From positions 620,001 through 684,000 of the forward strand of contig NZ_JACHGW010000002.1 of the NCBI RefSeq assembly GCF_014202505.1: a stretch of DNA of 64,000 bases, written 5' to 3'. This stretch comes from Armatimonas rosea (GTDB lineage: Bacteria; Armatimonadota; Armatimonadia; Armatimonadales; Armatimonadaceae). Made by a program: the position numbers and the translations under genes. The first letter of the stretch is position 1; each line of letters begins with the position of its first letter. The notes under the pieces were generated by a model. It searched no databases. It saw nothing but the letters and a program-made list of their open reading frames with translations, and was not told the origin of the DNA. This document shows, in pieces, positions 9,690-61,349 of the stretch.

Positions 9690-10511
9690 AAGCGCTGCGA
9701 AGAACAGCCCTGCGCCACAAAACGTATTAATCAGCGGGAAGTGTTTGTAGAGCCGCATCACGCCCTCTTCCGTTCCCGCGCGGAGCGAGAGCAGCATGAG
9801 GGTGGCGTAGACAAGCCCCAGCGGCACGGCGAGCCAGCCAATGGCGGGAAATGCCAATGCCGCTGCCGTGAGATAGAGCGCGAGACAGAAGAGCAGAGTT
9901 CCGCGCAGGCCCAGGGTTGTCGCAACCGTAAACGTGCTGCTCTCTCGGTCGGCGGTGATATCGGGGACCGCGGAGTAGGCCTGCATCGCCATCACCCAGG
10001 CCCAGCCGGCAAAGAGAGTCGGGAGCGAGAGCGTGGTTCCGCCCGCCAGAAAATAGGCCACGTAGCCGGGGCAGATGTAGAGCGCATTGAACGACGCATC
10101 GAGAAAGGGCTTGGACTTCGCCCGGATCGGCGGCGCGGAGTAGAATGCGGAGAGTAGTACAAACGCAACCAGGGCGAGCTGGGCGGGGCGCGGCAGAAAG
10201 TAGGCCGCGGCAAAGAACGGCAGGTTGGTGAGCGCAATCGCAAGGCTCAGAGCCTTACGCTGATCCGGTGGCACGAGCGCTTCGTAGCCCTGCTTCTTGG
10301 CGTTGAGGACATCGGTCTCGTAGTCAAAGATATCGTTGATGCCGTAGATCAGCAGGTTCGCCGGCAACAAAAAATACACCAGAAAGATCAGAGCGAGTGG
10401 CGAGTAAAAGACCGCCGGCGACTTCAGCGCCGCTAGCCCCACCACAAACGGGCCAAGGACATACATCCAAAATCGGGGGCGGCTTGTCTGCCAAAGGCGT
10501 GCCAGGGTCAC
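9681..10511 (-). CDS. UbiA-family prenyltransferase, probable lycopene elongase
   Basis: 276 residues with about eight membrane helices and a GTG start at 10511. The first aspartate-rich motif is intact (GINDIFDYETDVLNAKKQG, NDxxDxExD type). The second is SAVPDITADRES (DxxxD). UbiA enzymes move isoprenyl groups onto acceptors in the membrane. Members next to crtB, crtI and a CruF gene are the lycopene elongases of C50 carotenoid pathways (LyeJ in haloarchaea, CrtEb in actinobacteria). Substrate is inferred from context; a quinone or chlorophyll-type prenyltransferase is the alternative. The 5' end overlaps the start region of the divergent CruF gene. Confidence 0.8.
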   Translation of the reverse strand: MTLARLWQTSRPRFWMYVLGPFVVGLAALKSPAVFYSPLALIFLVYFLLPANLLIYGINDIFDYETDVLNAKKQGYEALVPPDQRKALSLAIALTNLPFFAAAYFLPRPAQLALVAFVLLSAFYSAPPIRAKSKPFLDASFNALYICPGYVAYFLAGGTTLSLPTLFAGWAWVMAMQAYSAVPDITADRESSTFTVATTLGLRGTLLFCLALYLTAAALAFPAIGWLAVPLGLVYATLMLLSLRAGTEEGVMRLYKHFPLINTFCGAGLFFAALAP

Positions 10512-11227
10512 GGCTTATTCTACCGTCTGCGCTGGCCTTCGCCGCCATCAGTGGTTTTTTTGTCGCGCGGTTCCCCGTCCGCCCCGAGCTGGCCATTGTC
10601 TCCGCGATCTTTGTCTTGGTCTTCGCCTGGCCGAGCTACGCGGCGATCGTGCGCTGGCTGGGGGTAAAACGCGGCGTTCGGCTCTTGGTCGTGCTGGGAG
10701 TCTATGCGCTGGTGCTGGAGACCGTTGCGGTGAAGACCGGCGTGCCCTACGGACGCTTCTCCTACGGCCCCAAGATCGGGAAACTTCTCTTTGACGCCGT
10801 GCCGTGGACCGTCCCCTTTTCCTGGACCCCGCTAGCGCTCTGGGCGCTCTGGCGTGCGCGGGGCAAGGCGATCCTGGCGGGAGTGCTCTTGGTCGCGGTC
10901 GATCTCTGCCTCGATCCGGGCGCGGTGGCCCAGGGGTTCTGGAGCTACGCGGCGGGTGGGGCGTACTTTGCGGTGCCGTTCTCGAACTTTGCTGGCTGGC
11001 TGCTCTCAGGAACCCTGGGCACCTGGCTCGGGCGGGGCTTGGACTGGCGCGAGGCACCTGCGGAGGTGCGCACCAGTGGCCTGCTGAGTATCGCCTTTTG
11101 GACCAGTGTCTGCCTGAACATGGGGCTCTGGGTTCCTGGCGTGGTCGGCGTCGCGCTGATTGTTGGGTCGGGGATTGGAAATCCCCGCCTGAGACATTCG
11201 GAGCGCCCCGAGGGCGCGGGGAGCTAG
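10499..11227 (+). CDS. cruF: CruF-type carotenoid hydratase (DUF422 family)
   Basis: From the GTG at 10499 about 242 residues; an in-frame ATG at 10397 would run deep into the opposite UbiA gene and adds a low-complexity, non-membrane leader, so it is less likely. About seven hydrophobic segments. The family core VLETVAVKTGVPYGRFSYGP is very clear, followed by VPFSWTPLALWALW and VAVDLCLDPGAVAQGFWSY. CruF adds water to the terminal psi-end double bonds of carotenoids: 1',2'-hydratase in Deinococcus and cyanobacteria, bacterioruberin 2'',3''-hydratase in haloarchaea. With the adjacent elongase the latter is favoured. Confidence 0.85.
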   Translation: MPGSRLILPSALAFAAISGFFVARFPVRPELAIVSAIFVLVFAWPSYAAIVRWLGVKRGVRLLVVLGVYALVLETVAVKTGVPYGRFSYGPKIGKLLFDAVPWTVPFSWTPLALWALWRARGKAILAGVLLVAVDLCLDPGAVAQGFWSYAAGGAYFAVPFSNFAGWLLSGTLGTWLGRGLDWREAPAEVRTSGLLSIAFWTSVCLNMGLWVPGVVGVALIVGSGIGNPRLRHSERPEGAGS

Positions 11228-11230
11228 GGG

Positions 11231-11611
11231 CTAGCTCATCTTTTTGAGGAGGTCCCGCCGAAAGGCGGGCCATGCCAGAGCCAGGGAGCACAGGAGGATG
11301 GCGCAGACTAGAATCCAGAAGTTGGTGAGCCAGGCACTCACAAGGGCGGAGCCGATCACCAGGAGCCGTGAGAGAGGATTCAGGAGCCAGTCCAGGGTGA
11401 AGAGTGCTTCGCCGTAGCTTGCGGCAAAGAGGAGCGCCACGCCAGTGAGGAGCCAGGTGTACAGACGGAGCCGCAACTTGGCAAGCCGGAGCTGGTACCG
11501 AGTGTAGCGCACCAGTCGAGGCAGCATCCAAGGGTGCTCGGTAAAGACAAGTGCAAGCCCCAGAAAGAGCCCCGCAGTGAGCCAGAAGCTGAGTTGGAGA
11601 CAATCCATCAT
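11231..11611 (-). CDS. small membrane protein, paralogue of the next gene
   Basis: 126 residues with three or four hydrophobic helices (FWLTAGLFLGLALVF, TWLLTGVALLFAASY, LLVIGSALVSAWLTNFWILVCAILLCSLALAW). The end segment SAWLTNFWILVCAILLCSLAL resembles SLWQHNAWIFVWVFLTCNGAL of the 92-residue gene just upstream, so the two are probably paralogues. The end lies 3 bases from the converging CruF stop. Family and role unknown; perhaps a two-component membrane complex. Confidence 0.55.
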   Translation of the reverse strand: MMDCLQLSFWLTAGLFLGLALVFTEHPWMLPRLVRYTRYQLRLAKLRLRLYTWLLTGVALLFAASYGEALFTLDWLLNPLSRLLVIGSALVSAWLTNFWILVCAILLCSLALAWPAFRRDLLKKMS

Positions 11612-11628
11612 ATTGCGATTGACCTAGC

Positions 11629-11907
11629 CTAAGTGGTGAGAAAGCGCATCTTTGCGTAGAGCAGGGCACCGTTGCAGGTGAGAAATACCCAGACAAAAAT
11701 CCAGGCGTTGTGCTGCCAGAGACTGACCAGAGCGGCGGTCAGGAGGACGGTGCGGGTGGCAGGGTTCTTCAAAAACGCCCACTCTTGTAGAGAGATCAGG
11801 AGAAGCGTGAGCATGCTGTAGAGGAACTCACCCAGGCTAACGACAACTTGGGTGAGCCCTGTCAGGACCATGCGAAGCCCTTGGAGAAACAACTTGAGGC
11901 GACGCAC
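11629..11907 (-). CDS. small membrane protein
   Basis: 92 residues with a basic N-terminus (MRRLKLFLQGLR) and three hydrophobic helices. The last segment matches the last segment of the neighbouring 126-residue protein in pattern and in the N-x-W-I-x-V core. Located 17 bases upstream of that gene and 5 bases after the zinc-ribbon gene, so probably the middle cistron of a three-gene minus-strand operon. Not recognised. Confidence 0.55.
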   Translation of the reverse strand: MRRLKLFLQGLRMVLTGLTQVVVSLGEFLYSMLTLLLISLQEWAFLKNPATRTVLLTAALVSLWQHNAWIFVWVFLTCNGALLYAKMRFLTT

Positions 11908-11912
11908 GTTTT

Positions 11913-12854
11913 TTACTTCCCAAAGAGCCCGGTGGGGAGCGAGGGAAGCTTGAGCTTGCTCTCCTCGGGGACGATATGAAAGTGGGCGGGGGTGAGGTCG
12001 GCGGGGATATCGCGGTAGCGGTTGCGGAGCTGCTCCAGTGCCAGGTTCGCCCCGTAGAAGCCGTCGTCGGCGCGGTTGGAGAGGGCTTTGTTGTCCCGCT
12101 GATCGGTGAGCCAGCTCAGAGTGGGCTGGGCAAGCTCTTCTTTATTTCTCTGCCCCGCGAGCTGCTTGATCGTCCCAACTGTCTTCTCGAGCACGGTTCC
12201 TAGAGCGCTCTTGGTCGTGGTGAGCGCGGTGCGGTAGCTCTGGGCGAGCTCCTGACACGCGGCGGGAACGGGCTGCTTGTCAAAGACCTCGACAGTCGCG
12301 CCCCAGCCCTTCACGACCGGGCTGACTCTCTCCTCGAAGCGCTTGGCGACCGCGAGCTCGGGCGGGCCCTGGATCGGGGGTGCGTCCTCGGAGAGCAGGT
12401 CGGCGTAGGCTGCGGTGGTGGCAAGCGGGGCCAGAGAGAAGACCTGATTGAGCTGCATCCGGTGGCGCTCGCTCTCAAACCACTTGAGCCAGCGCAGGTA
12501 GGCCACCACATCGGCGGGCATGGGCTGGCGTGCGGCAGTGAAGAGCCCCCCCGCCGAGCCGCTCTGCCGCTCCGAGCCCGGCGCAGAGAGAATCCCGCCC
12601 GGGTTGGTGGCTCGCCCAAGTAAATAGCTGGAGCTTCCGACAAGTGCGAGTAGCGAGAAGATCGCCACAAAGCCCTGGCGGCGGCGGTTTGGCCCCCCGG
12701 CCCCCAGGGAGGGGGGAGTGTGTGAGGTTTGTGTCTGCGGGGCAGGCGCTTGCAGGGGCGGGGCGCTTCGGCGCGGCGCGGGCGCGAGCCCACAGACGGT
12801 ACAAGGCGACGATGGTGAGGATTTTCGGGCTCCACAGCCTCCACAGCGGTTCAT
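11913..12854 (-). CDS. zinc-ribbon, single-pass membrane protein
   Basis: 313 residues from the ATG at 12854, with AGGAG about 10 bases upstream. The N-terminal 22 residues form a zinc ribbon (CGGCGAR then CTVCGLAP, two CxxC pairs). A proline-rich linker, one membrane helix (about residues 62-80, FVAIFSLLALVGSSSYLLG) and a helical extracytoplasmic region of about 230 residues follow. Proteins with a zinc ribbon, membrane helix and outer domain are common in bacteria, but I cannot assign this one. First gene of the operon with the two small membrane proteins. Divergent from the NAGPA-like gene. Confidence 0.65.
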   Translation of the reverse strand: MNRCGGCGARKSSPSSPCTVCGLAPAPRRSAPPLQAPAPQTQTSHTPPSLGAGGPNRRRQGFVAIFSLLALVGSSSYLLGRATNPGGILSAPGSERQSGSAGGLFTAARQPMPADVVAYLRWLKWFESERHRMQLNQVFSLAPLATTAAYADLLSEDAPPIQGPPELAVAKRFEERVSPVVKGWGATVEVFDKQPVPAACQELAQSYRTALTTTKSALGTVLEKTVGTIKQLAGQRNKEELAQPTLSWLTDQRDNKALSNRADDGFYGANLALEQLRNRYRDIPADLTPAHFHIVPEESKLKLPSLPTGLFGK

Positions 12855-12950
12855 AAAATCAGCACTCCTGGGAAATGGACGTTGGGAGGCTAGGGTTGGT
12901 TGCGGCTCCTGGCGGGGAATTTTTAGCGGAGTTTTTCGGTATTGACGCAC

Positions 12951-14060
12951 ATGGCAAAGAAAACTGGGGCGAAGAAACAACGCTGGTGGGTGGGGGTGAG
13001 TGTCGGGGTGGTGGTCTTTGTGGCGGGAGCGATCGCCAAGGCGCGCTTTGTGGGCGACCTGCACTTTCGCTCTGGCGAGGCGGTGGATGCGCCGCACCCT
13101 GAGGCGACCTGGCCGTGGCCCGCTGCTACCAAAGAGACCCTCTGGCCCGGTGTCACCCACTGGCACCAGATCTCGTCGCGCGATGCCACACGCCTGGAGC
13201 TCTTTGAGTTCGACTTGGCGGCCAATCCCAAGCTCCGTCTGGAGATCTACGACCAGGACGAAGACGATGACACTCCCTTTGACAACAAGGCCAAGATCTA
13301 CGAGCGGGGCGTGGCGCAGGTGGTCTCGCACTTGGAGCAGAAGGGGCGGGGGACGGTCCTGCTGGCCTGCAATGGGCTCTACTACGGCTACGATAGCAGC
13401 GGGCCGCGCGGGACGGCGTGGCATGTCTCGCCGGTGGTGCTCGGGGGGAAGTCGCACTACACCAATGGGGAGAACCACCGCTGGACCTTTGGGGTGCGCA
13501 ACACCGAGAGCGGGCCGGTCTTTACCCACCTGCGACGTCCCGACACGGCCACTATCGAGAGGACCTTTGATTTCTCATCTGGGGCGGCCCACTGCCTGGT
13601 GCTGGAGGGCAAGCCCTACGGTCTCGCGCCGCTCCCGAAAAAGCCTGGGCTCCAGGCCGATGGCAAGCCCTACACCGAGCTGGGCAAGAACTTTGAGTGG
13701 ATGCGCACCAGCCGCATCTCACTGGGCTGGACAAAGGACTCCAAGCGCCTGTACTTGCTGCTTGTGAAAGAGCCCGATGAAGAGGCGATCAGCAACTGGG
13801 CGGTCGAGTACGGCATCCCGCTCGGCGGGGGCTGGACCTTCACCGATCTGCAGAACTTCTGGCTCAAGCTCGGGGTCTGGGGGGCGATCAATAGCGATGG
13901 CGGCAATGTCGATCAGCTCACCTACCGGCAGGCCGATGGCAACTACTTCCTGATCCCGCCGATGGGAGTCTTTGCCGTGCCCCAGACCTACTCCCCGAGC
14001 TTTTCGGGCGCGCCCCATGCGGGCTCTCTTATGTACTGGGTCATCCGCGAACAAAAATAG
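12951..14060 (+). CDS. phosphodiester glycosidase (NAGPA) domain protein, membrane-anchored or secreted
   Basis: 369 residues from the ATG at 12951 (MAKKTGAKKQ). A basic start and one hydrophobic helix (VGVSVGVVVFVAGAIA) give an anchor or uncleaved signal. The rest fits the NAGPA-like fold: ARGT-type opening region VLLACNGLYYG (residue about 140), a mid-domain ISLGWTKDSKRLYLLLV strand and the diagnostic GAINSDGGNVDQLTYR near residue 320. Family members act on sugar-phosphodiester or envelope polymers. The substrate is not known here. Ends in a strong terminator hairpin. Confidence 0.75.
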   Translation: MAKKTGAKKQRWWVGVSVGVVVFVAGAIAKARFVGDLHFRSGEAVDAPHPEATWPWPAATKETLWPGVTHWHQISSRDATRLELFEFDLAANPKLRLEIYDQDEDDDTPFDNKAKIYERGVAQVVSHLEQKGRGTVLLACNGLYYGYDSSGPRGTAWHVSPVVLGGKSHYTNGENHRWTFGVRNTESGPVFTHLRRPDTATIERTFDFSSGAAHCLVLEGKPYGLAPLPKKPGLQADGKPYTELGKNFEWMRTSRISLGWTKDSKRLYLLLVKEPDEEAISNWAVEYGIPLGGGWTFTDLQNFWLKLGVWGAINSDGGNVDQLTYRQADGNYFLIPPMGVFAVPQTYSPSFSGAPHAGSLMYWVIREQK

Positions 14061-39482: not shown

Positions 39483-39876
39483 GGAATCCACTGTACTGCG
39501 ACGGCTCCGTGATCGAGCGGTTGCTTACGCACAAGAAGATCAACGCACGGATCTTCTCATTTCCTCACTGTCTCTCTGGATGGAGAGTGAGAGTCAAACA
39601 CCAGAGGCACTGGCGCAGTTCCTCGGCACGGATGCAACAGGACTTAGCCGCCTTGCTCTCTGCCGACCTCCTCGCCAAAGTGCGTACATAGAAGATATTG
39701 AGGTGATCGCAGGGTACTCCGGATGCCGTATTGAGCCACTACGACATCTTCTACGACGCCTGGAGGTGTTAACGACTCTGGCGGGGTCTGCACCGACTAC
39801 TGGGCAATTGCCGAACTCGGTCACTCAAGCGATCTTATTAGCAGCACGTGATCGGGAGCTCGGCCCCGATGCCTGA
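39475..39876 (+). CDS. small HTH-like partner of the sigma factor
   Basis: 133 residues. The centre (TPEALAQFLGTDATGLSRLALCRPPR) reads like a helix-turn-helix, followed by YIEDIEVIAGYSGCRIEPLRHLLRRLEVL. No membrane segment and no zinc motif, so not a classical anti-sigma factor. It overlaps the sigma gene upstream and the metallopeptidase gene downstream by 8 bases each. By position it may be the inhibitor of the sigma factor and the substrate of the protease; this is inference only. Confidence 0.6.
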   Translation: MAEESTVLRRLRDRAVAYAQEDQRTDLLISSLSLWMESESQTPEALAQFLGTDATGLSRLALCRPPRQSAYIEDIEVIAGYSGCRIEPLRHLLRRLEVLTTLAGSAPTTGQLPNSVTQAILLAARDRELGPDA

Positions 39877-40603
39877 CGCCTTTTCACAGACACTTGTCCT
39901 GGCGACTCGCTTACGCGAAGAACTGGGGATGGTCCCAACAGAGGTCTTTGATCCTATTGCGGTGTTGGAGTCAGCCTATCCCGTGGCGTGTGTTGCCATA
40001 CCCAGCCTATGTGTGGGGGCTATCCGACAGTGGCTGGAGCAGCGTGTAGAGTCGTTTCCTGCTCAGCTTTTACTCGCAGAACAGGAAGATCGTCCGCTAC
40101 ATGGTGCCGTCCTCGCGTGGCGTGGCGTAGGGCTCTTGCTTGCGGACGAACACGACCCCTGGATCGAGCAGCGCTACACCTATGCGCATGAAGGTGCGCA
40201 TTTCCTTCTTGAGCATTACTTTCCACGCCAAGAAGCCTTGCGCTGCTTGGGAGAGCGAATCCGTCCTGTCTTGAATGGGGAACGCCCCCCGACTCTTGAG
40301 GAGCGCTCCGACGCACTGCTGAGAAACACTGCTCTGGCATGGCATGCACACCTGTTTCCAAAAGACGCCCAGGGTCGCCAGTTTGCCGAAGAGCGAGCCG
40401 ACTGGCTGGCTTGTGGCCTACTGGTGCCTCCAGAAGTGATTCTACAAGGTGAGCAAAAGCAGGTCAGTGCTGATGAGGTCGCGGATACCTACCAGATTCC
40501 TCTCGCGATTGCCAAGGAGTATGTTCTACGCCTATCCTATGAACAAAGACCCAAGAACAATTGTGTGCTCCTAGAGCGCCTCGCATCATACAACCATATA
40601 TAA
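39869..40603 (+). CDS. ImmA/IrrE-family metallopeptidase
   Basis: 244 residues from the ATG at 39869 (overlap ATGCCTGA with the gene before; a GTG at 39848 is in frame but less likely). Zinc-protease motif HEGAHFLLEHYF (HExxH, about residue 105), followed by a later Glu in GRQFAEERADWLACGLLVPPEV, the third ligand region typical of ImmA/IrrE. Family members cleave a specific repressor after DNA damage (IrrE on DdrO in Deinococcus; ImmA on ImmR in ICEBs1). Its position before the repair-type genes fits such a switch. Confidence 0.85.
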   Translation: MPDAFSQTLVLATRLREELGMVPTEVFDPIAVLESAYPVACVAIPSLCVGAIRQWLEQRVESFPAQLLLAEQEDRPLHGAVLAWRGVGLLLADEHDPWIEQRYTYAHEGAHFLLEHYFPRQEALRCLGERIRPVLNGERPPTLEERSDALLRNTALAWHAHLFPKDAQGRQFAEERADWLACGLLVPPEVILQGEQKQVSADEVADTYQIPLAIAKEYVLRLSYEQRPKNNCVLLERLASYNHI

Positions 40604-40655: not shown

Positions 40656-41834
40656 ATGGAAGAAGAAAGCCTGACGGCAACATTGGGAGAGCCACTTGAC
40701 AGTGTGTTGGACCTTACCTCCTGGAGAGACGGAAGAGATCAAAGTGTACTTTATGAGCAATTAAGGACAGTCGTTGCGGAGAGTGTCGCCCAGAGCGAGC
40801 GGACTCGTCAACCAATTCGCGATATCGTCGTCAAGCGATTACGGGCAAGTGCGGGTACAGGTACCTCACCCAAGGAAGCGGGGCTGTACTCCCTTAATCC
40901 GGGGGATATCGCGGAGGTTCATCGCCAGCTACTTTTTAACGGAGCGGCAGAAGCCTGTGATGGCACGGTCATCGCACATGACTCCCTCTTGCTAACCGTG
41001 GCACAGATCGGCGTCGCTCTCGTTGCCTACCAAGGAGGCACTGGCTCCTGGGTTCAGCGGCTCTACCGACGGGACCTACGGGAGACCTACGAAGACCCTG
41101 TTGAGGAAGCCATAGCTTTACTGGAGCGCCGGAGCCGAAGTGATAGTGCCGATGCGGATGACACGCGTGATCCGGTCAGCCGTCTGCTACGTCGTGGGTT
41201 GATGGAGTACGCTGAGCGTGCCATCTTACTACATCGCTCCACTGCCCCTTGGCGCATTGGTCATGGTCACCCAGTGACAACGACAATTCTGCTGCCGACA
41301 ACTCGCTCGCTTTTCCTGGCATCTCTAGACGTACTCCGTGGACTTTTGCTAGATCATAAGAAGTTTCTCTATGTGGCAAGTAGCCCAGCAGATCGTTTGG
41401 CTCGCACAATCGGAGACTCGCTCTATCCTCTCGAATATGCTGTGATCGGAAGTTTGGCTGATTCATTTAACGATCATCACATTGATAGCCTGACGAGTAA
41501 GTCAACGGGCCACCCTCAAGAGCGAATAGCACTACGGCAGTTTCTTGTTGATGTTCGGACAGAGATTGTCTATGGAGTCTACCGAGTTACCGACTACTCA
41601 CCCGCGCAGGTTTTCTACGCCCATAAAGATCACGTTCACACCGCGGCGTCACTGGCAATGGCAGATAGCGTCTTACAGCCCCACCGGGGCTTTCCGATGT
41701 TGATTGACCTAGCCGATCTAGTCTGCCGAACGACGTTTGATGGGGGAAGCTTCGCAGGTTTGGTGCACTCTGCTTACGCTGCGGCTGGGGCACCCGTTCG
41801 TTATTTAGGAGAGCGCGAGACACGCTCGCGCTAG
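40656..41834 (+). CDS. nurA: NurA-like nuclease
   Basis: 392 residues. NurA is a 5'-3' nuclease that works with HerA. Here the gene lies 20 bases before HerA. The first acidic motif of the fold is recognisable (ACDGTVIAHDSLLLTVAQIGVALV, Asp about residue 101). A late Asp/His-bearing region is found around LIDLADLV and GLVHSAYAAAGAPVRY. Central segments LPTTRSLFLASLDVLRGLLLDHKKFLYVASSPADR resemble the NurA core. Sequence identity to known NurA looks low, so the call leans on context. The N-terminal 90 residues are helical and unassigned. Confidence 0.65.
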   Translation: MEEESLTATLGEPLDSVLDLTSWRDGRDQSVLYEQLRTVVAESVAQSERTRQPIRDIVVKRLRASAGTGTSPKEAGLYSLNPGDIAEVHRQLLFNGAAEACDGTVIAHDSLLLTVAQIGVALVAYQGGTGSWVQRLYRRDLRETYEDPVEEAIALLERRSRSDSADADDTRDPVSRLLRRGLMEYAERAILLHRSTAPWRIGHGHPVTTTILLPTTRSLFLASLDVLRGLLLDHKKFLYVASSPADRLARTIGDSLYPLEYAVIGSLADSFNDHHIDSLTSKSTGHPQERIALRQFLVDVRTEIVYGVYRVTDYSPAQVFYAHKDHVHTAASLAMADSVLQPHRGFPMLIDLADLVCRTTFDGGSFAGLVHSAYAAAGAPVRYLGERETRSR

Positions 41835-41854: not shown

Positions 41855-43687
41855 ATGACTATGGAGCAAGAAGAGAGCAGAGGCGCACTGCGCGTTTTTG
41901 ATCAGGTTCAGGAGGAGATGCGGGAGGATGCTGCCCTCCGAGGGGGAGCCTACACCGTTCCTGTAGATCGTGCCAACGCAGCTGGGTTCACCATGTTCGA
42001 TACGCCCAATAGCGACGACAATTTGATCGAGGTACTGGTACCCAAAGATCGGATCGAGCGTCTGCCTTCTCAAGCGAGTGTGCGTATCCGGAGTCGGGAT
42101 GGGCGGGTTTATCTGGGAACGGTGGTTCGTGGCCCCTATGCCCTCCCCGATGGGCTTCGGGCGGATGCCCCGCCGGTTGTGGCGACGGCGCTACATGGCT
42201 CTGTTTTCTTACCGGAATACCATGGCCTAGTGTCTGTCGAGCTGGCAGGAGAAGAGCGAGATGGTGCACTGATGCCTCATCGGTTCCGCCCTCTGCCAAA
42301 TAGCCCGGTGGAGGCACTGGAAGACGCGGAGATCGAAGCCTTCTGGAAGACCGGGGGAAATGTGCGTCTTGGAGCTGCGTTTGGCCACGAAGATCTAGCT
42401 GTCTCGTTCGATCTGATGCGCAAAGAGGTGCTCCCACGTCACACGGCGATCCTTGGAACCACGGGTGGAGGTAAGTCCACAACCGTTGCAGGCATGGTTC
42501 ATAAGCTCCAGAACGCAGGCGCGGCGGTGATTCTCTTGGATACGGAGGGTGAGTATACAGAGATGAACCTCCCAACAGAAGACCCACGCATGGAGGCGGC
42601 TCTAGAGCGACTGGGCCGTAAGCCCGAGGGTGTCGCCGATACCCATGTTCTGTATCTGGTAGGGCGCGACGCTGCCAACCCTCTTCATCCCGATTGCCGT
42701 CCCTTCTCCCCATCATTTTCGCGGATCTCGCCCCATGCAGCGATGGAGATTTTCGATCTCAATGAAGCCCAGGAAGAGCGCTTTCAGAAAGCCGTCACCA
42801 CAACCGCGCGACTGCTCGATGAGCTTGATCTTTGGACTGAGGAAAACCGGCAGTACGCAAAAGAGGCGATGGACGAGTTCGATGAAGGTTGGCCCAAGAT
42901 GCGCCTCTCGCAAGTCTATGATGTCGCCCGCTGTATCGCGGATGTGCTGCAGAATGGCTCCGTTCAAGAAACAGCTTTGCGGTCGCCAGATTTTCATAAC
43001 CAGCGCGCCAAATTTGTGGGAATTATTCAAGAGGCCGCTAAGGACGAAACAAAACATTGGCAAAGCTGGCGCAAGGTGCAGGGACGGATTGGACGGATCG
43101 AGCGGCTTGGGCTTTTTGATAACCCGAGAGCCACTTCACTGGATGCTAGGCAGATGCTTCAGCCTGGGCGGGTGACTATCATTGACCTCTCAGATTCTGA
43201 ATCTACTGTGGTGAACAACCTCGTGATCAGTGAGCTTCTCCGCGAAGTACAGCGCCAGCAGGAAGAAGCCTACCAAGAGGCCGAGGATATGGGACGGGAG
43301 CCTACGCCTGTTGTCGTCATGATTGAAGAGGCACACGAGTTTCTCTCTAGCGCCCGAATCGCACGCATGCCGATTCTGCATCAGCAGGTAGCCCGCATCG
43401 CGAAACGAGGCCGTAAGCGCTGGCTGGGACTGGTGTTTATCACACAGCTGCCCCAGCACTTACCTGATGAGATGCTTGGGTTGGTCAATAACTACATCCT
43501 TCATAAGATCGGCGACACCGGCGTCGTGAGCCGTTTAAAGCGCACGATTGGCGGGATGGATGACTCGCTCTGGGGACGCGTTTCTCGCCTTGCACCAGGG
43601 CAGGCCATTGTGTCCCTCTCTAGCCTGACCCGCCCCCTTCTGACCGCGATAGATCCGGCTTCCTGCCGGTTGAGGATGATCCGTTGA
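41855..43687 (+). CDS. herA: HerA-type DNA translocase/helicase
   Basis: 610 residues. The N-terminal beta-barrel region (HAS-barrel-like, residues about 40-160) is followed by a FtsK/HerA ATPase core: Walker A LGTTGGGKSTT (about residue 201), VILLDTEGEYTEM, Walker B VVVMIEEAHEFLS (about 488), then ARIAKRGRKRWLGLVFITQLPQHLP with the sensor and arginine-finger region. HerA hexamers pump DNA into NurA and cooperate with Mre11-Rad50 in end resection in archaea. The TGA stop is inside TTGATAA, overlapping the TTG start of the next gene. Excellent family match. Confidence 0.92.
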   Translation: MTMEQEESRGALRVFDQVQEEMREDAALRGGAYTVPVDRANAAGFTMFDTPNSDDNLIEVLVPKDRIERLPSQASVRIRSRDGRVYLGTVVRGPYALPDGLRADAPPVVATALHGSVFLPEYHGLVSVELAGEERDGALMPHRFRPLPNSPVEALEDAEIEAFWKTGGNVRLGAAFGHEDLAVSFDLMRKEVLPRHTAILGTTGGGKSTTVAGMVHKLQNAGAAVILLDTEGEYTEMNLPTEDPRMEAALERLGRKPEGVADTHVLYLVGRDAANPLHPDCRPFSPSFSRISPHAAMEIFDLNEAQEERFQKAVTTTARLLDELDLWTEENRQYAKEAMDEFDEGWPKMRLSQVYDVARCIADVLQNGSVQETALRSPDFHNQRAKFVGIIQEAAKDETKHWQSWRKVQGRIGRIERLGLFDNPRATSLDARQMLQPGRVTIIDLSDSESTVVNNLVISELLREVQRQQEEAYQEAEDMGREPTPVVVMIEEAHEFLSSARIARMPILHQQVARIAKRGRKRWLGLVFITQLPQHLPDEMLGLVNNYILHKIGDTGVVSRLKRTIGGMDDSLWGRVSRLAPGQAIVSLSSLTRPLLTAIDPASCRLRMIR

Positions 43688-44883
43688 TAAAAGCAATTGT
43701 TGTATCTGACTGCCACCTGGGAACCTACTACGCCCGGTTTCGCCCTGAGCGCTTGGAGCAGCGACGACGCCAGCTCCAGCAGGGATTTGCTAAGACGGTT
43801 CAAGCAGCACTGGACCATGACGTAGAGCTCTTCCTCATCGCGGGAGACCTTTTTGATCGTCCCGATCCGCGCAATGCAGACCGGCACTTTGTTGCACTGC
43901 AACTTGGTCGACTAGCAGCGGCGAAGATCCCCGCAGTGGCAATTGCAGGTAACCATGACAGCCCTCGCTCCTACGGCTATGACGGCGGTATTGTTCCCTT
44001 GCAGGAGATGCACGCGCTGGGCGGTGTCCAGCTCCTCCGACAGGACGATGTTATGCAGGGCGTCCAGATAACGGTGCGAAGCGGAGCCACTGTATCGGTT
44101 CGGGGGATGAGTGCCTCGTTCCAGCACGACGATGGTAGCTGCCCACTTAGTACCCTCGCCGCTGACAAGCGAGGCGGTGCACTGGATATTGTCCTGCTCC
44201 ACTATGGTGTCGAAGGCTGGTCTGGTGAGAACTTCCAGGAACCACGTCTAGCCCTAGAAAATCTAGAGAAGCTTGATACGGATGTTATTTGTGTGGGGCA
44301 CCTCCACCGACGCAACGAGCGCCGACTCCAGAGTGGTGCACTTCTGCTGAACCCAGGCTCGACAGAGCACATTCACTTTGGTGAGGAAAAGCTTGACTGT
44401 GGCTGCTATCTTCTGACGCTCGCCACTGGGCAACCGGCGAAGGCAGAGTACCTGCGCCATACCGTTCAGCCGATGCGCACCCTAGAAGTTTCAGGCGAAA
44501 CGTTGGACGAAACCGATCCCCAGGCGGATCTGGAGAGACGAATCGCCGAGGCCACGAGCCCAGAGACTCTCTTCCGGCTGACCTTGACGGGGGAACTTCG
44601 TCAGGAGGTCTATGAGCTGGTGGATCTCAACCGTTTGCAGACGTTTGCGAGTGAGCGGTCCTTTCACTCACAGATACAAACGGATGATCTTGCGATCCGC
44701 TATCCCTTTGGGGAACTTGTTTTCTCCTCGGGGGGCTTTGAGCTTAATGAGGTACTCAGCGAGGTAGCACAGGCTATGGAACTATCCGCAACGGATGAAG
44801 AGCAGCGTGCACTCTGCCGCGAGGCGCGGGAGGCGATCCTGGCCTCGTATCAGCGACTGCGTGGAACGGGGGTGGCAGCATGA
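43684..44883 (+). CDS. Mre11/SbcD-like exonuclease subunit
   Basis: 399 residues, starting with TTG at 43684 (overlaps the HerA stop). Calcineurin-like phosphoesterase motifs in order: SDCHLG (DxH), IAGDLFDRPD (GDxxD), IAGNHDSPR (GNHD), LLHYGVEG (His) and CVGHLHRRN (GHxH). These ligate two metal ions for the DNA nuclease. A capping domain of about 150 residues follows (LTGELRQEVYELVDL). The stop overlaps the Rad50-like ATG (ATGA). Closest in layout to SbcD, Mre11 and YhaO. Confidence 0.92.
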   Translation: MIKAIVVSDCHLGTYYARFRPERLEQRRRQLQQGFAKTVQAALDHDVELFLIAGDLFDRPDPRNADRHFVALQLGRLAAAKIPAVAIAGNHDSPRSYGYDGGIVPLQEMHALGGVQLLRQDDVMQGVQITVRSGATVSVRGMSASFQHDDGSCPLSTLAADKRGGALDIVLLHYGVEGWSGENFQEPRLALENLEKLDTDVICVGHLHRRNERRLQSGALLLNPGSTEHIHFGEEKLDCGCYLLTLATGQPAKAEYLRHTVQPMRTLEVSGETLDETDPQADLERRIAEATSPETLFRLTLTGELRQEVYELVDLNRLQTFASERSFHSQIQTDDLAIRYPFGELVFSSGGFELNEVLSEVAQAMELSATDEEQRALCREAREAILASYQRLRGTGVAA

Positions 44884-47800
44884 TTCTTCTACACCGGCTA
44901 GAGGCCGAAAACTTCAAGCAGTTCGAGAAGATCGAGCTGGATTTCCCCGAGCGTGGTGCTGTGCTCATCGAGGGGCACAACGAGGCAGGTAAGTCCTCGC
45001 TCTTTGAAGCCGTTTACTTTGCACTCTACGGTAAGGGGCTGGGTGGATTAGATGTGGGAGACCTCAAGCGCTACCACGCAGATCAGATGAAGGTCACCCT
45101 CAGATTCTCTGTGGAAGGACGTCAATTCACCGTGGAGCGTCGCCTTGCATCCAGCCAAAAAGTGACTCTCACGTGCCCTGTGGGTTTAGATGGTCAGGTA
45201 GAGGTTATCAAGACATTGACTCCTGCCAATAAGCGCATCATTGATGAACTGGGTATGAGTGACGCGTCGCTTCTCAATACCTGCTTCGTCGAGCAGAAAC
45301 GCCTAGAGCGGATTGAGTCTGCAAAGCCCGAAGAGCGTAAGCAAACCATCAATGAGCTCCTAAACTTGAAGTCACTCTCGATGCTGGAGTCGGAGTTCAA
45401 GGTAGTACGGGCAGATAAAGACGCTGTTCTAAGGGCTAAGGAGCGGGTTGATATCGCGAATTTGGATGGGCTACTTTCCGCACTTCAGGAAAAAGAGCAG
45501 CGGATGAAGACTTGCTGCCAGCTTTCTCGTTGGCAAGAAGCGGATCGTGAACACTCCCGGATACAACTGCGCCAAGGAGAAATTGCGACGGAGCAAGACA
45601 AGATAAAAACGCGCCTCAGAGAAATCAAAGCAAAATTCGATACTATCAATCGGCTTGAGGCGAGAGCCCAGGCTATTGCGAGACAACTGGCACCTCTGGC
45701 ACGCGCTTGGCAGGATGGTGAGCATCGAATTGCTGAGGCCGAGGCCGCCGTTACTGCCGCGAAGAACGCCGCGCTACAAGCCACGGAGCTTAAGGAAAAC
45801 CTGAAGCAGGCAGAAATGCATCACAAACAGCTTGTCGAGGCGCTGGAGTTTGCAAAAGCCCATCGCGCTTGGGAGGACTATCACCAAGCGCAGAACCAGC
45901 AACAGGAAGCGCTGACCAAGATTGAGTCCCTGAAGCAAAAGGTTGAAGAGGCTGAGCGGGCGGAGGGGCTCGCACAGGTAGCACTGGCAGGAGCGGAGCA
46001 GAAACTGACTCTGCGAACAGCTCTCCAAGATTGGGCTAATGCCTCTGAAAACCTCACGAAGCTCCAGAGTATCGAGATGGATCGTGCCCGCTTCGTTCAG
46101 GAACAAGAAGCCACACGAACCCAGCGTATGCAGGAACTGGAAGCGAATCATACTCAGCTCACTCAGCAGCTAGAGACTGTGCGTACTAAAAATATTCAGG
46201 AGCTTCGCGAGTTGGAGGCGGCTCACGTCACGGCAATTCGGGAGTGGGAAGCGACGGTAGCTAAAACAGGTCAAGAGCTACTTGCTGCACAAGAGCGCAT
46301 GAAGAAGGGGCAGACTTCTCTACCCATAATGTCACTGGTTGGGGTACCGAGCTGGAGTGTTATGGGGCTCGGACTAGCACTCACGCTTGGTGGTTTGAAA
46401 GTAGTCCCACTTCTCTTGATTGGTCTAGTTCTTCTTCTTGTCGGAGTGGGCTTGGCCTTTCAGAAGATCAGTACAGCCCGGAAAGCCTCCGAGGGACAAG
46501 CGATACAGCTATCGCAAGAAGTGGGGCGGCTTGAGCAAGTACAGAAAGCCGCAAAAGACCAGCGAACCGCCCTTGAGCAACAGCAAGCCCAGCACCTCAA
46601 GATGGCGCGGGAACAACACCGTATATTGGAGCAAGGGCTTCTTCAGCAGCAAGCGCAAGTGCTCGAGCAGAAGCGCCAGGCGGAACAGAAAGCGGCGGGC
46701 CATCATGGCAGTGGCCAGGTCACGGCGCTTCCGGAGGCACAGAAGCAAGAAAAGGAATGCAGAACCACACTAGAACACCTGATTGGGGATGCCCCTTTCC
46801 CCACGGATACTGATGCAGCGCGTACCAGTGCTGAGGCTATTACCCATGCGCTTGAGCCCATTCGTACTAGGGCACGGGAAGCCCAAGAAGAGAGTAAGCG
46901 CCTGAATCACAGCTTGATTGCCACACAGTCTGGAGTCAAGCAAGCTCCTATACCAACTGTGCCACAACCAACGGATACAGAGCGCCAGCTCTTGGCTCAG
47001 GTACAAGCGGGGCTTTCACAAGCTAAATTGCCCTCGGAGCCAAGTTCTCTTGCCAGTGTGATTGGCCAGCTCAAACAGAAAATGCAAGGGCAAGAGGAGC
47101 TTGCTGCGACACTTCCCACTTGCGAACAAGCTCACCAAGCAGCAGTGCTGGCGCGGGATCAGCGGCGGGATGCTTTTCATGAGGCTTGCCAGAATCTACT
47201 GACGGAAAATGTCGTGATTCCCAGCGAGGTGGTTCAGGTACTGGAGGTTTTCTTGCCTGAACAAGAACAAGCAGTTCGCATGGCACTTCAGGTATTCGAT
47301 CCCTCCGCGCTTCGGATTGAGCAAGACCAGCATAGGGAGGCGGAGGCGAGTCTACAACAGGAGCAGGGGCGACTTCGGCAACAGGAGAGTGATGTGACGA
47401 AGCAACGCGAGGCGGCGCAGGAGGCGCTTGCGACTGATTCAGCTGGAGTGACAGCGCTTCTCCAGAGTCACCCTGAGGTTACCTCTCGTACCAGCGATTT
47501 CTGGCAAGCGGAGGCTCTTGGCGCAGGTGAGAATGTACTGGAGAACCGGAGTCGTCGAAAGGCACTAGCGGATCGTCTCGGACTGACAGATGAGCTCTTG
47601 GAGAGTACGGTAGAGTCACTGGCGCTGCAAACCGCCCAGCGAGCTTTGCGACGTAAAGAGCTCGCTAGTAAGATCGTTGAGGAGTCCCGCAAGCAGATAC
47701 TAGACCGCGTGATGCCCTCGACTGAGATCTGGGTGAAGAAATTACTGCCTCTCTTGACAAACCACCGCTACCGGGACATTAAGTGGAATTCCGAGGAAAA

Positions 47801-48137: not shown

Positions 48138-48161
48138 GTGTATAGGAATAGGGTGTTAAAA

Positions 48162-48803
48162 TTGAAAAACAAAGAAATGCTTCTCCTGAGTTTTCTTATG
48201 CTTAGTGGGTGTAATCAGTCGCGCCCTCTACCAACTGTACAGAAGCCAGAAGACCCTGTCTTGAATGTGGTTGCGATAGACCGCAGTGGTAGCACAGCGA
48301 ACATGCGTGAGACTCAGCTGCTGGCGTTAAAATCTGCTTTCGCCAGAGCTGCCGATTGGGGTGAAGAAGTTGCTATCTACATGGTTGACAGAGAGATTAC
48401 CTGCTTACTTCCAGCCGAAAAGATCAATGACGACTCTCGAATCAAAAAACGCGTTTTTGATCAGTTGAAGGAATTAGATGCTTTACGTTCTCAAGGTACA
48501 CGTCCTTATAACTTATGGAAAGAAATGGAGAAGCTATATGCAGGTAAACAAAAGAGTGTTCGTATTCTTTATCTGACGGATGGAGATAACGATTGGAAAG
48601 ATGATGAAAGGCTAATAAGTAGAGCTTTGCTAAGTATTTCTAAGAATTCAAAAATAACAATTGCAATACTTGGATTGAATAAGGATACAGAAGAGGGACT
48701 TAAATCCCAGTTTTCCTGTTTTGGAGGTCGAGTGACATTATCAGTAGGTAAAGAAAAATCTACCATTGCTGCCGGGATCACTAAGTGGAGAGAGAAAAAA
48801 TAA
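48162..48803 (+). CDS. VWA-domain lipoprotein
   Basis: 213 residues from a TTG at 48162 (ATAGGG 9 bases upstream; an in-frame GTG at 48138 adds 8 basic residues). Lipobox FLMLSGC, so membrane-anchored on the outer face of the cytoplasmic membrane. The VWA metal site is visible as AIDRSGST (DxSxS), with the Thr/Asp pair in YLTDGDNDW. Typical VWA strands are NVVAIDRS and ILYLTDG. VWA proteins bind partners through a metal. The stop overlaps the start of the next gene (TAATG). AT-rich relative to the rad50 gene. Confidence 0.75.
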   Translation: MKNKEMLLLSFLMLSGCNQSRPLPTVQKPEDPVLNVVAIDRSGSTANMRETQLLALKSAFARAADWGEEVAIYMVDREITCLLPAEKINDDSRIKKRVFDQLKELDALRSQGTRPYNLWKEMEKLYAGKQKSVRILYLTDGDNDWKDDERLISRALLSISKNSKITIAILGLNKDTEEGLKSQFSCFGGRVTLSVGKEKSTIAAGITKWREKK

Positions 48804-57363: not shown

Positions 57364-59253
57364 CTATTCTAAATCAGTATTGTTTCTTATTGCAATTAGT
57401 CGTTGGTGAAATTCAAATCGATAGTATCCAGATCCAAGTTTGTTATAAAGGAGTTCGATTGCTATGGCTATGTTTTTACTACTCAGTTCTCCTAGTGCAC
57501 GAAGAACTTCAGGAATTCGTTTTTGAAGATCACTTTCCGAGGGGGCAGGTACACGTCTGGCACGATATGCGTTCTCAACTGATTTTATAAATTTGGCAAG
57601 AGTATCATTACTCTCATTATTCCACCAAAGTTCAATATCCTCCGGGTTCTCAGCAAGGACAAGCACCATATCCAAGTACTCTGAGGCGCGCTGACCGATG
57701 CTGTCGGGCGCGTTGAAGACATCCTGGAGGATCTCGGTGGGCGAGGCTCCGAAAGTCTGAATGCGAGGCTGATTGGCAGTGACTTGCCCGTTGTCGTTTT
57801 GCAGCACGGTGACCTCGCTGGTGAAGGCGTCGGTGAGGGCAATGCTGGAGTGGGTAGTGAGCACGACATCGTTGGGATCGTCACCGAGGCTGTCGTCTAC
57901 GATGTCCACCATCTGGCGCTTCCAGAAGTCGTTGAAGTGGGTCTCGGGCTCATCGAGGAGCACGAGAGCGTCTTTCTCGTCGCGTAGGAGGTAGAAGAGT
58001 GCCATCCGGCCCACGAAGACACGCTCACCATCACTGAGAGAGTCGAGCAGCAGTAGGTTCTCCACGCCATGTTTTCGTAAGACTAGCTGCATATCGTGTA
58101 GGTTAATCAGGCCACGTAGGTGCCATTCGTGAATGGTTTTGAAGGCTAAGAACGCCGTTCCGCCTAGTGCATTTAAGATGGCTCGTGCGGTATTATTCTC
58201 GCCGTCTGTTTCTTCACCTCGGTACATCGCCCTAAGATCAAAGAAGAGTGAGCGAGGATTGGCGAAGCTGCTATCATCAGGCATACCGGGTTCACTGAGG
58301 CGGCTGGTTGCGATGCCGATAAGTTTTTCCCAAGGTCCTTTTCGTCGTTCAGATTCGTCCTCGCGACCACCTGGAAAAGCGCTGTCAGGCTCCTCGACAT
58401 GGATTTTGAGGGTGACGGGCCATAGGTAGCCAATCGTGTCAAGAATCCCCCGGAATCCACTGATGCGTTGCCCACCATCAGATTCGTCGCGCTCTTTCAG
58501 AAACTTCTGGCGCAGTTCGTCGGTCTTGAGAGTACTCTCGAACTCCTCAGCAGCTTGCGAGATGGCCATGACGATCATAGCGAGGCGGAGGGCATTATGG
58601 GTGACATGTAGGCCGATGCTGGCCTCCGTTATATTGTTGGGACGTGGGTTGAGGGAGATAGCATGGGGGGAGAACTCCTCTGCATCGTTGGAGGGGGCGA
58701 AATCTTCCTCTAACCCGCGTCGGTGCGACCCAAAGAGACTCTCCCAGGCTCGCGTATTACCTGATGTGTAGGAAAGCATCACCCGAGGTAAAAAACCTGT
58801 ACTGCCAGGAAAGCTTCCCATATAAACATTACTAAATCCTCCACGTGCGATTAATGCTTCCTGAACGGATTGTGTTGGCCCTTCAAAGTGAATATTATCA
58901 AAATCTCTGATTTTATTTTTTAGTATCTCTGGAGAAAGAATTTGGAGACTCTCCATTAGTACTGCTCGGGATTTAAGTCCGTAACGCGAATGTAAAATAA
59001 GTGTGCGATTATCACTTTTATCTGTCGCTCCTATATCCCATGCCAAAGTAACTGGGAATGGCGGGACTGTACGGCTTTCCAACGACAGAAAAACATCGGC
59101 AATTGCCTGGAGCAAACGACTCTTTCCGCTTCCATTAACTCCAACAACAAAATGAATCGCACCTGGTCGCCCTAAAATCTCCTCATGCCCAAACGTTAGA
59201 GTTACATCACTTAGTGGGGGAAGATTTTCGACATGGAAATAGCGTAGTCTCAC
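57364..59253 (-). CDS. AAA/ABC-type ATPase, Septu PtuA-like
   Basis: 629 residues, GTG start at 59253. Walker A VVGVNGSGKSRLLQAI (about residue 38), signature-like LSDGERVFVGRMALFYLL, Walker B ALVLLDEPETHFND (about 434), and a switch His in VLTTHSSIALTD. Architecture as in AAA_21-type defence ATPases (PtuA, GajA-like N-terminal part, retron ATPases) but without a TOPRIM domain. The start overlaps the hsdS stop (GTGA), so it is translated together with the type I specificity subunit, a notable coupling. Confidence 0.88.
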   Translation of the reverse strand: MRLRYFHVENLPPLSDVTLTFGHEEILGRPGAIHFVVGVNGSGKSRLLQAIADVFLSLESRTVPPFPVTLAWDIGATDKSDNRTLILHSRYGLKSRAVLMESLQILSPEILKNKIRDFDNIHFEGPTQSVQEALIARGGFSNVYMGSFPGSTGFLPRVMLSYTSGNTRAWESLFGSHRRGLEEDFAPSNDAEEFSPHAISLNPRPNNITEASIGLHVTHNALRLAMIVMAISQAAEEFESTLKTDELRQKFLKERDESDGGQRISGFRGILDTIGYLWPVTLKIHVEEPDSAFPGGREDESERRKGPWEKLIGIATSRLSEPGMPDDSSFANPRSLFFDLRAMYRGEETDGENNTARAILNALGGTAFLAFKTIHEWHLRGLINLHDMQLVLRKHGVENLLLLDSLSDGERVFVGRMALFYLLRDEKDALVLLDEPETHFNDFWKRQMVDIVDDSLGDDPNDVVLTTHSSIALTDAFTSEVTVLQNDNGQVTANQPRIQTFGASPTEILQDVFNAPDSIGQRASEYLDMVLVLAENPEDIELWWNNESNDTLAKFIKSVENAYRARRVPAPSESDLQKRIPEVLRALGELSSKNIAIAIELLYNKLGSGYYRFEFHQRLIAIRNNTDLE

Positions 59254-61349
59254 AGGTCACCTATTTCGGTTTTTATGTAACCAATGGCTCTCAACAGATT
59301 TGCTCCAAGTAAGTCGGCATTATCTAAGTTTGCCCCTCGTAAATCAGCATTCTCCAGGTCTGCACCTGTTAGAGTTGCATAAGATAAATCAGCATTTCGA
59401 AGATTCGCCCATCGCAAATCGGATTGCTTCAGGTTTGCTCCACGCAAATCCGCACTTTCGAGATCAGCACGATTTAAAATCGCACCAGACAAATCGGCTC
59501 TTCGGAGATCTACCATCCGCAATTTGAGCCCAGCCAGATTTCTATTTCGAAGATCGCCTTTAGGCAAGATGTCATTGTATTGTAAGTGTTCATCGTTTCG
59601 AATTGCTCTATAAACGATCATATAACTTTGTTTGTCAAAAACAGTTTGACTTGGTAGTTCTTTTCCAACTGCAACAATTAATCCAGCTTCAGAAAGCGTT
59701 TCCAATGCCCGCTGGATCATAGGAATCTGGCTGCGCTGAAGCGGCTCACGCTGTGCTAGGAGCTCTGCTGTCCAATACCGCGACGCATTTTCGGTTATAC
59801 CAGCCAAAACCAACTCTTCCAAAGACCCCTTTATCTCCGCCAGCGCCTCGGGCCGCCTTGCCTTCAGCGGTAGATGCTCACGCCACCTATTCATCGCGTA
59901 AACATGAAAGAACTCCTCGATCTCCATGGGCTCATCGTCCGGCTCCTTGGTCCAAGATGCTTGCGAAGAAAAATCGCTTTCCACATCAGCCAAAAGCCAG
60001 CGAGACTCACCTTCAAAATCAGATTCGTTTTGTGAATCAATCTTCTGTTGAGTAACCGAAACCGCTTCCTGTTTCTCCGGTGTACTCTTACGCCAAGCCT
60101 CAGTAAGATTACCTAGGAATGCGTTTATTGCAACTGACTGAATTAGTTTGTCCGCTTCAGATAAACCATTTTGAATAAAATCGAATATTTCACGCGTCCA
60201 ACGCGCACTATCAACAAATGAATCTTGTAATTTTCTGGGGGGAATCAGAAATGGCAAAGCGGCAAAGCGTGATGCGCCAAGATGAGCGATACTAGAAGTT
60301 TTCGAGCCAATGCGAGCAAATTCTCCACGTCGATAATAATATAAGAAAAGAGACAAGGCAAAAACAGGAGTAACTTCATCTGATTTTCCGCGAAAACGAA
60401 TCAGAGTATTCTGAAAACAACAATCTGGAATCTCACCTCTCCACATGGCAGGACGCCCTACAAGTTCAGAACTCTGTCCCTCATTTAGAAGAATATCACC
60501 ATACTCTAAACGATAGATTTTAAAGTCTCGATCATCAAAATCCATTTGAAGTACATCAGATATATCAATGCGATCCTCAAAAACATTTGCAACACGGAGA
60601 TATGGCTTAAAATGTTGTCCTGTTTGGTATTGAGGTGTTCGTTGCCGCCCTAGTTGCACTAAGCCAGCATCACCCACGCGAACCTTCTGCCAACCTTTTG
60701 GGTTTTCGGTTGGATCTCCAAACATTTCATGAAACAGCGCAGGCATCAGGTCCCGCGCTCCCCAGACTCGTTCCTTCTTCCCCTCGCGCTCCACCCAACC
60801 CCCTTCTAGCATGAGCCGTCGGTCGTCGCGGATTTCTTCGGCGAGGGAGAGGATTTCAACGATGCGGCGCTGCTCGGCGAGAGGGGGAAGAGGAATTTTT
60901 ACGCTCCGTACATCGGCGTCGCTCACTGCCGGATACGTTTGCCCACGCTCAAGCTTTGCGAGGTTCTCTATGAACTGTGCCGTTCGCACAAAAGAAAACA
61001 AAAATGTGGGATCAATGAGCGAAGTGTCAGGTCTGAGAACGCAAAATCCCGTAGAGCAAATCTCACCATCTAAATCTTCGGGCACCAGTGTAACGGCATT
61101 GAGACGAGGACGAACAGTGGAAACCAGTACATCGCCCGCGCGAACAACCTGCCGAGCTCTGCTTGGTGCTTCCAAGTTCTGAACTTCTTGAGCCGCTGTG
61201 ATGCGCTTCGATACAGAGTCTAACGACGAAATATCGATATAGCGAAAAGTTCCCTCTCCCTTACTGGCAGGATTTATTGAATCCACTGATGAGCAGAGAT
61301 GGCCCAAAGGGGGCATGAGCCAGGAATCAGGAAGCTTTGGCCGTTTCAC
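59250..61349 (-). CDS. hsdS: type I specificity subunit HsdS with pentapeptide-repeat tail
   Basis: 699 residues, much longer than the usual about 400. Two target-recognition domains: SWLMPPLGHLCSSVDSINPAS... with VVRAGDVLVSTVRPRLNAV (residues 10-165) ending in PLPPLAEQRRIVEILSLAEEI, and a second from about 215 (WQKVRVGDAGLVQLGRQRTPQY, FARIGSKTSSIAHL). A linker with winged-helix look (FFHVYAMNRWREHLPL, PMIQRALETLSEAGLIVAVG) follows. The end (about 600-690) is a run of pentapeptide repeats (ADLSGAILNRADLESADLRG). ATGA overlap with hsdM. The tail is unusual. Confidence 0.88.
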   Translation of the reverse strand: MKRPKLPDSWLMPPLGHLCSSVDSINPASKGEGTFRYIDISSLDSVSKRITAAQEVQNLEAPSRARQVVRAGDVLVSTVRPRLNAVTLVPEDLDGEICSTGFCVLRPDTSLIDPTFLFSFVRTAQFIENLAKLERGQTYPAVSDADVRSVKIPLPPLAEQRRIVEILSLAEEIRDDRRLMLEGGWVEREGKKERVWGARDLMPALFHEMFGDPTENPKGWQKVRVGDAGLVQLGRQRTPQYQTGQHFKPYLRVANVFEDRIDISDVLQMDFDDRDFKIYRLEYGDILLNEGQSSELVGRPAMWRGEIPDCCFQNTLIRFRGKSDEVTPVFALSLFLYYYRRGEFARIGSKTSSIAHLGASRFAALPFLIPPRKLQDSFVDSARWTREIFDFIQNGLSEADKLIQSVAINAFLGNLTEAWRKSTPEKQEAVSVTQQKIDSQNESDFEGESRWLLADVESDFSSQASWTKEPDDEPMEIEEFFHVYAMNRWREHLPLKARRPEALAEIKGSLEELVLAGITENASRYWTAELLAQREPLQRSQIPMIQRALETLSEAGLIVAVGKELPSQTVFDKQSYMIVYRAIRNDEHLQYNDILPKGDLRNRNLAGLKLRMVDLRRADLSGAILNRADLESADLRGANLKQSDLRWANLRNADLSYATLTGADLENADLRGANLDNADLLGANLLRAIGYIKTEIGDL

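Follow-up and report, generated by a model that had tools for sequence, protein, structure and literature searches.

In this study we describe a Rad50-like ATPase of Armatimonas rosea that bears a hydrophobic hairpin at the apex of its long arm and no CxxC motif. The protein is homologous to Rad50, its gene stands in one operon with genes for Mre11-like and HerA-type proteins, and the apex hairpin is conserved among its relatives. Judged from its sequence, the apex of the arm is probably anchored in the membrane by this hairpin, a reading to which we give a probability of about 70%. The operon would then most likely encode a candidate membrane-tethered Mre11-Rad50 end-processing complex and, because dozens of related bacterial proteins carry the same apex segments, tethering to the cell membrane probably extends to the whole branch of hairpin-bearing Rad50 machines. 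We see an even chance for the wider proposal of a monophyletic Mre11-Rad50 branch, in Chloroflexota and other phyla, in which the hook was replaced by a membrane hairpin that anchors and dimerises Rad50 and brings end processing to the membrane, in some lineages together with HerA. We found no description of a membrane-hairpin Rad50 in the literature; a survey of ABC ATPases (10.1093/nar/gkaa726) may hold an earlier one. Positions refer to the window, the stretch of 64,000 nucleotides that we analysed (Table 1).

Table 1. Genes and protein segments discussed, with their positions in the window.
Feature	Position	Strand	Evidence or remark
M78 (ImmA/IrrE-like) metallopeptidase, HEGAH motif	39848-40603	+	module starts here; Pfam M78 at 19 bits, cut-off of 22 not reached
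NurA-position protein, 392 aa, ACDGT motif	40656-41834	+	place next to HerA; no Pfam family above threshold
HerA-type ATPase	41855-43687	+	PF01935 80 bits; NCBIfam HerA 95 bits, far below equivalog cut-off
Mre11/SbcD-like nuclease, TTG start	43684-44883	+	PF00149 55 bits; NCBIfam Mre11_Sulfo 79 bits
Rad50-like ATPase, 1085 aa	44880-48137	+	phmmer against solved Rad50s E 2e-17; Foldseek Rad50/SMC; NCBIfam archaeal Rad50 93 bits
Apex hydrophobic hairpin, residues 481-527	46320-46460	+	hydropathy, shuffles, homologue comparison, AlphaFold2 model
Second, stronger transmembrane candidate, residues 509-527	46404-46460	+	KD19 2.89 at 508-526; model helix from 509
VWA lipoprotein	48138-48803		zero gap after the Rad50-like gene
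Coiled-coil membrane protein, 988 aa	48785-51751		about four central transmembrane segments

The arm apex and its conservation

The nearest solved relatives of the protein are Rad50s by sequence and Rad50 and SMC proteins by fold. It has the bipartite ABC head of this group: we read the motifs GHNEAGKS (Walker A), CFVEQK, SGGARDQ (signature) and DEPLSSFD, and Walker A, Q-loop, signature, Walker B and H-loop align across the family. The original prediction, that the coiled coil has no CxxC, extends to the entire protein, whose seven cysteines lie at residues 99, 135, 212, 213, 627, 748 and 770, so that it lacks the motif of a zinc hook. The two hydrophobic stretches with a turn that had been proposed for the apex, at 46320-46480, were located correctly within seven codons. 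They occupy residues 481-527 (LPIMSLVGVPSWSVMGLGLALTLGGLKVVPLLLIGLVLLLVGVGLAF). Counting D, E, K, R, N, Q and H as strongly polar or charged, this block of 47 residues contains a single one, K507, against 49% in the adjoining arm. The highest 40-residue Kyte-Doolittle mean of the protein is 2.04; 3000 shuffled versions of it reached at most 1.85, and none equalled the block in a window of either 40 or 47 residues. Outside the hairpin the top 19-residue window reaches 1.23. With its KD19 of 2.89 the second stretch (508-527) is a strong transmembrane candidate, and its GES and Kyte-Doolittle values are those of transmembrane helices. The first stretch (482-503, KD19 about 1.7), a moderately hydrophobic helix that contains P490 and glycines, is weaker in the Armatimonas protein; in most relatives both are strong.

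An AlphaFold2 model (42-sequence alignment, mean pLDDT 77) shows a single helix from residue 177 to 479, a low-confidence break at 480-508 with a short helix at 492-502, and the next helix from 509. As the arm helix of about 300 residues ends at the hydrophobic stretch, the stretch is the apex of the arm in this model. The check by AlphaFold that had been suggested with the original prediction therefore places the turn at the apex; the confidence there is low (pLDDT 38-48), so the model does not prove a hairpin.

A search with an eight-sequence alignment against 84,980 species genomes gave 76 loci, mainly in Chloroflexota and also in Armatimonadota, Caldisericota and scattered bins with possibly wrong labels. 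Among evenly drawn Chloroflexota genomes roughly 46 of 301 have the family, counting strong hits only. The hydrophobic hairpin is present in 60 of the 68 homologues placed in the family tree and absent in eight, near-copies being included in these rows so that they do not amount to 60 independent events. On this tree the hairpin states need three changes and, with a midpoint root, they fit an ancestral hairpin that would have been lost in L047 and inside one Chloroflexota clade. L047, one of the two closest relatives, has neither hairpin nor CxxC and yet adjoins Mre11, hence the hairpin is dispensable to the ATPase. None of the 68 homologues has the usual CxxC at its apex, and among full-length members a CxxC of any kind occurs only in L111 (residue 59, in the N-terminal part) and in L058. 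The latter (10001-13879), a hairpin-less member, has CEAC at residue 467 inside its arm, which could be a hook remnant, hook-like or due to chance.

We then asked where the most hydrophobic 40 residues lie anywhere between landmarks in the N-lobe and the C-lobe, without favouring the middle. In 36 scorable hairpin proteins the hairpin has a relative position of 0.413 (SD 0.012), while the N-arms range from 143 to 604 residues and correlate with the C-arms at r = 0.97. An element that sits at the apex of an antiparallel arm should keep such a constant relative position while the arms vary. At the extremes, L107 (7092-12200; 1703 aa) has arms of about 600-800 residues with the hairpin still at the apex, and L057 and L060 retain it on arms of about 145-200 residues. 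In eight SbcC controls, seven from the phylum and one from the Armatimonas genome itself, the CxxC lies at 0.46-0.48, on a scale slightly different from that of the hairpin, and none has a hydrophobic stretch (maximum 0.44). The 12 residues on each side of the hairpin contain on average 3.4 and 3.1 K/R and 1.4 and 0.9 D/E, with 0.5 and 0.08 in its core (the same 36 proteins). By the positive-inside rule, a membrane hairpin whose two ends lie in the cytosol should have such flanks, with many K/R and few D/E.

Operon partners

The genes for M78, the NurA-position protein, HerA, Mre11 and Rad50 follow each other at spacings of 52 and 20 bases and then with two overlaps of 4 bases, between herA and the start of mre11 and between the 3' end of mre11 and the Rad50-like gene. 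The Mre11-like protein shows the motifs SDCHLG, GDLFD, GNHD and GHLH, and an Mre11 gene is adjacent in most homologous Rad50 loci. M78, the NurA-position gene and HerA are a conserved module: M78 homologues adjoin the other two in L048, in L061 and in 11 of 12 further Chloroflexota loci, and NurA-position homologues adjoin HerA in all 12 of these. The NurA-position gene also co-occurs with the Rad50 family (8/15 against 46/301 Chloroflexota genomes; Fisher p 5e-4, kinship ignored). All five genes in one order were seen only in the Armatimonas window and in L048, L061 having them nearby in another arrangement, and in most of the homologous Rad50 loci HerA and the NurA-position gene were not found inside 10 kb. 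True NurA (PF09376, 75 bits) with HerA and Mre11 stands upstream of hairpin Rad50s in L096, L114 and L037, L096 and L114 sharing their contigs with L035 and L036. HerA, often with NurA or the NurA-position gene, is thus a recurrent partner, and most homologous loci show Mre11 only.

The original prediction had combined the hairpin Rad50 with HerA, NurA and a lipoprotein. HerA in the same operon and a hairpin at the site of the hook stand, and the hairpin, conserved and with positive flanks, is consistent with the membrane anchoring that the prediction had suggested. For NurA, position and size fit; the protein has no match in Pfam, in the PDB or in profile-profile comparison, even with 11 homologues. 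Alignment with true NurA by hhalign gave 0-0.2%, and an assignment as NurA by sequence is unsupported; the AlphaFold model was too poor for use (pLDDT 48). The family, for which Pfam has no model, shows an invariant C-D-x-T motif (alignment A6). Perhaps the protein is a very divergent NurA.

The lipoprotein probably belongs outside the Rad50 complex, and we rejected it and the coiled-coil membrane protein as Rad50 partners. Together the two genes form a module of their own in at least four other genomes of the phylum (G043, G048, G049 and G050), none of which gave a match to the hairpin Rad50, and a look through the homologous Rad50 loci revealed neither of them. Given the zero gap, the pair may be co-transcribed with the Rad50-like gene. 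The metal site of the lipoprotein VWA domain is apparently intact (DRSGS, TDGD).

Membrane tethering, repair and defence

In the mechanism that we propose, the Rad50-like protein would be the ATPase of a DNA-end-processing complex of the Mre11-Rad50 type, with a two-helix membrane hairpin as the tip of its arm. Both halves of the arm would lie in the cytosol, and the hairpin would dip into the inner membrane and return, anchoring the apex and probably also joining two Rad50 chains within the membrane as a substitute for the hook. ATP-driven engagement of the heads would control cutting by Mre11 at DNA ends, and the heads would be able to reach DNA as far from the membrane as the arm is long, which for its roughly 300 residues comes to about 45 nm if all of them are helical. 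HerA and the NurA-position protein, its presumed nuclease partner, could lengthen the cut into resection. Relatives of M78 such as PprI sense ssDNA (PMC10904395), so that by analogy with PprI/IrrE the M78 peptidase might plausibly serve as a damage-responsive regulator. Membrane insertion, which hydropathy does not prove, dimerisation through the hairpin, joint action with HerA and a role in repair or defence are what we infer.

The hook might instead have been replaced without any membrane, if two hairpins bury each other in the cytosol as a four-helix bundle. In Rad50 and SMC proteins the hook and the hinge can stand in for each other as dimerisation modules (PMC6969161), and in four hairpin-less homologues of the Chloroflexota clade with the presumed loss (L071, L074, L085 and L121) the apex stretch is moderately hydrophobic and non-transmembrane, maybe a small folded domain and possibly a third type of apex in Rad50, which would make the apex a swappable module. 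We nevertheless regard a soluble apex as unlikely: a single strongly polar residue in 47 is fewer than is usual for soluble helical bundles, the second stretch has the hydropathy of transmembrane helices, and the charges are distributed over core and flanks as one would expect of a membrane hairpin. It is less likely still, and indeed very improbable, that the protein is a plain member of the YhaN (SbcE) family, which is known for transmembrane segments in the arm. Its match to AAA_27 (33 bits) does exceed the cut-off of 22, and the YhaN-like precedent named in the original prediction is real, the hairpin being present in two of three Chloroflexota YhaN-like proteins (L175 and L176, not L174); such a device is therefore either familiar in its general form or has evolved repeatedly. 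However, these YhaN-like proteins reach 87-225 bits with AAA_27, and in the Rad50-like protein SMC_N and AAA_15 outscore that model. A tree of head sequences separates the hairpin family (support 97/98), SbcC and YhaN (100/99) into three groups, the joins between them being unsure owing to long YhaN branches. With this caution about long branches we rejected YhaN membership, and by its head sequences the hairpin family appears as one clade apart from zinc-hook SbcC and YhaN. The 68-protein tree covers the hairpin family only.

Another possibility concerns the role of the complex and competes with repair, not with anchoring: a membrane-tethered HerA/Mre11/Rad50 might be an anti-invader machine that attacks phage or plasmid DNA. 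The island that holds the operon also contains an integrase (31306), a DUF3987 protein, a sigma factor, SIR2, a PDDEXK_4 protein of the candidate defence group PDC-S26, a NucS-like protein, an AAA_21 ATPase and type I restriction genes, and the integrase, SIR2, PDDEXK_4, AAA_21 and restriction neighbours speak for defence. At 59250-61349 we noted a type I restriction specificity-like protein with an apparent pentapeptide-type repeat end (ADLRGANL). The scattered distribution, with the system absent from the other searched genomes of the same genus and family, points the same way, as do the match of the Rad50 head to the LmuB profile (82 bits) and the genome itself (6.3 Mb), which retains a normal zinc-hook SbcCD (L143, CEFC at 425), so that the hairpin Mre11-Rad50 is an addition there. 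On the other side, LmuB is outscored by archaeal Rad50 models (82 vs 93 bits), and the homologous loci that we examined share no conserved effector. Furthermore, no SbcD above the cut-off was found in 13 of 15 relatives checked, in which divergent Mre11-like genes do exist, hence the hairpin complex may be their principal Mre11-Rad50. We hold a defence role to be a serious possibility and lean slightly against it.

What the hook of Rad50 contributes besides the joining of two arms is still debated. A natural family with a predicted membrane hairpin at the hook site, in which heads and Mre11 are kept and arm length varies fourfold, would provide a ready-made test. Is joining at the apex the sole need, is the distance from the membrane relevant, and can DNA-end processing in bacteria be membrane-bound?

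Comparison with known systems

In Lamassu, LmuB is likewise Rad50-like, many but not all of its members having a zinc hook (PMC10586767), and the head here matches its profile. LmuB has about 650 aa and short coils (PMC10586767), against 1085 aa here. A PADLOC scan found neither LmuA nor LmuC in the operon, the only trace being a weak 21-bit LmuA match in a SIR2 protein on the opposite strand. The archaeal Rad50 carries a zinc hook. In Sulfolobus the genes for HerA, NurA, Mre11 and Rad50 form one operon and HerA-NurA performs resection (PMC4351679); here, too, the HerA, Mre11 and Rad50 genes overlap or are adjacent, whereas the gene in the NurA position is not recognisably NurA and an extra M78 gene is present. 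Bacillus YhaN carries membrane segments. YhaN/SbcE with YhaO/SbcF resembles our system in the apex hydrophobic hairpin of some members and in having a metallophosphatase partner gene, but the heads group separately and the partner gene here is Mre11/SbcD-like. With Rad50/SbcC the protein shares the ABC head, the signature motifs, the long arm and the overlapping Mre11 gene, and it differs at the apex, where a CxxC stands in those proteins and a 47-residue hydrophobic hairpin stands in this one.
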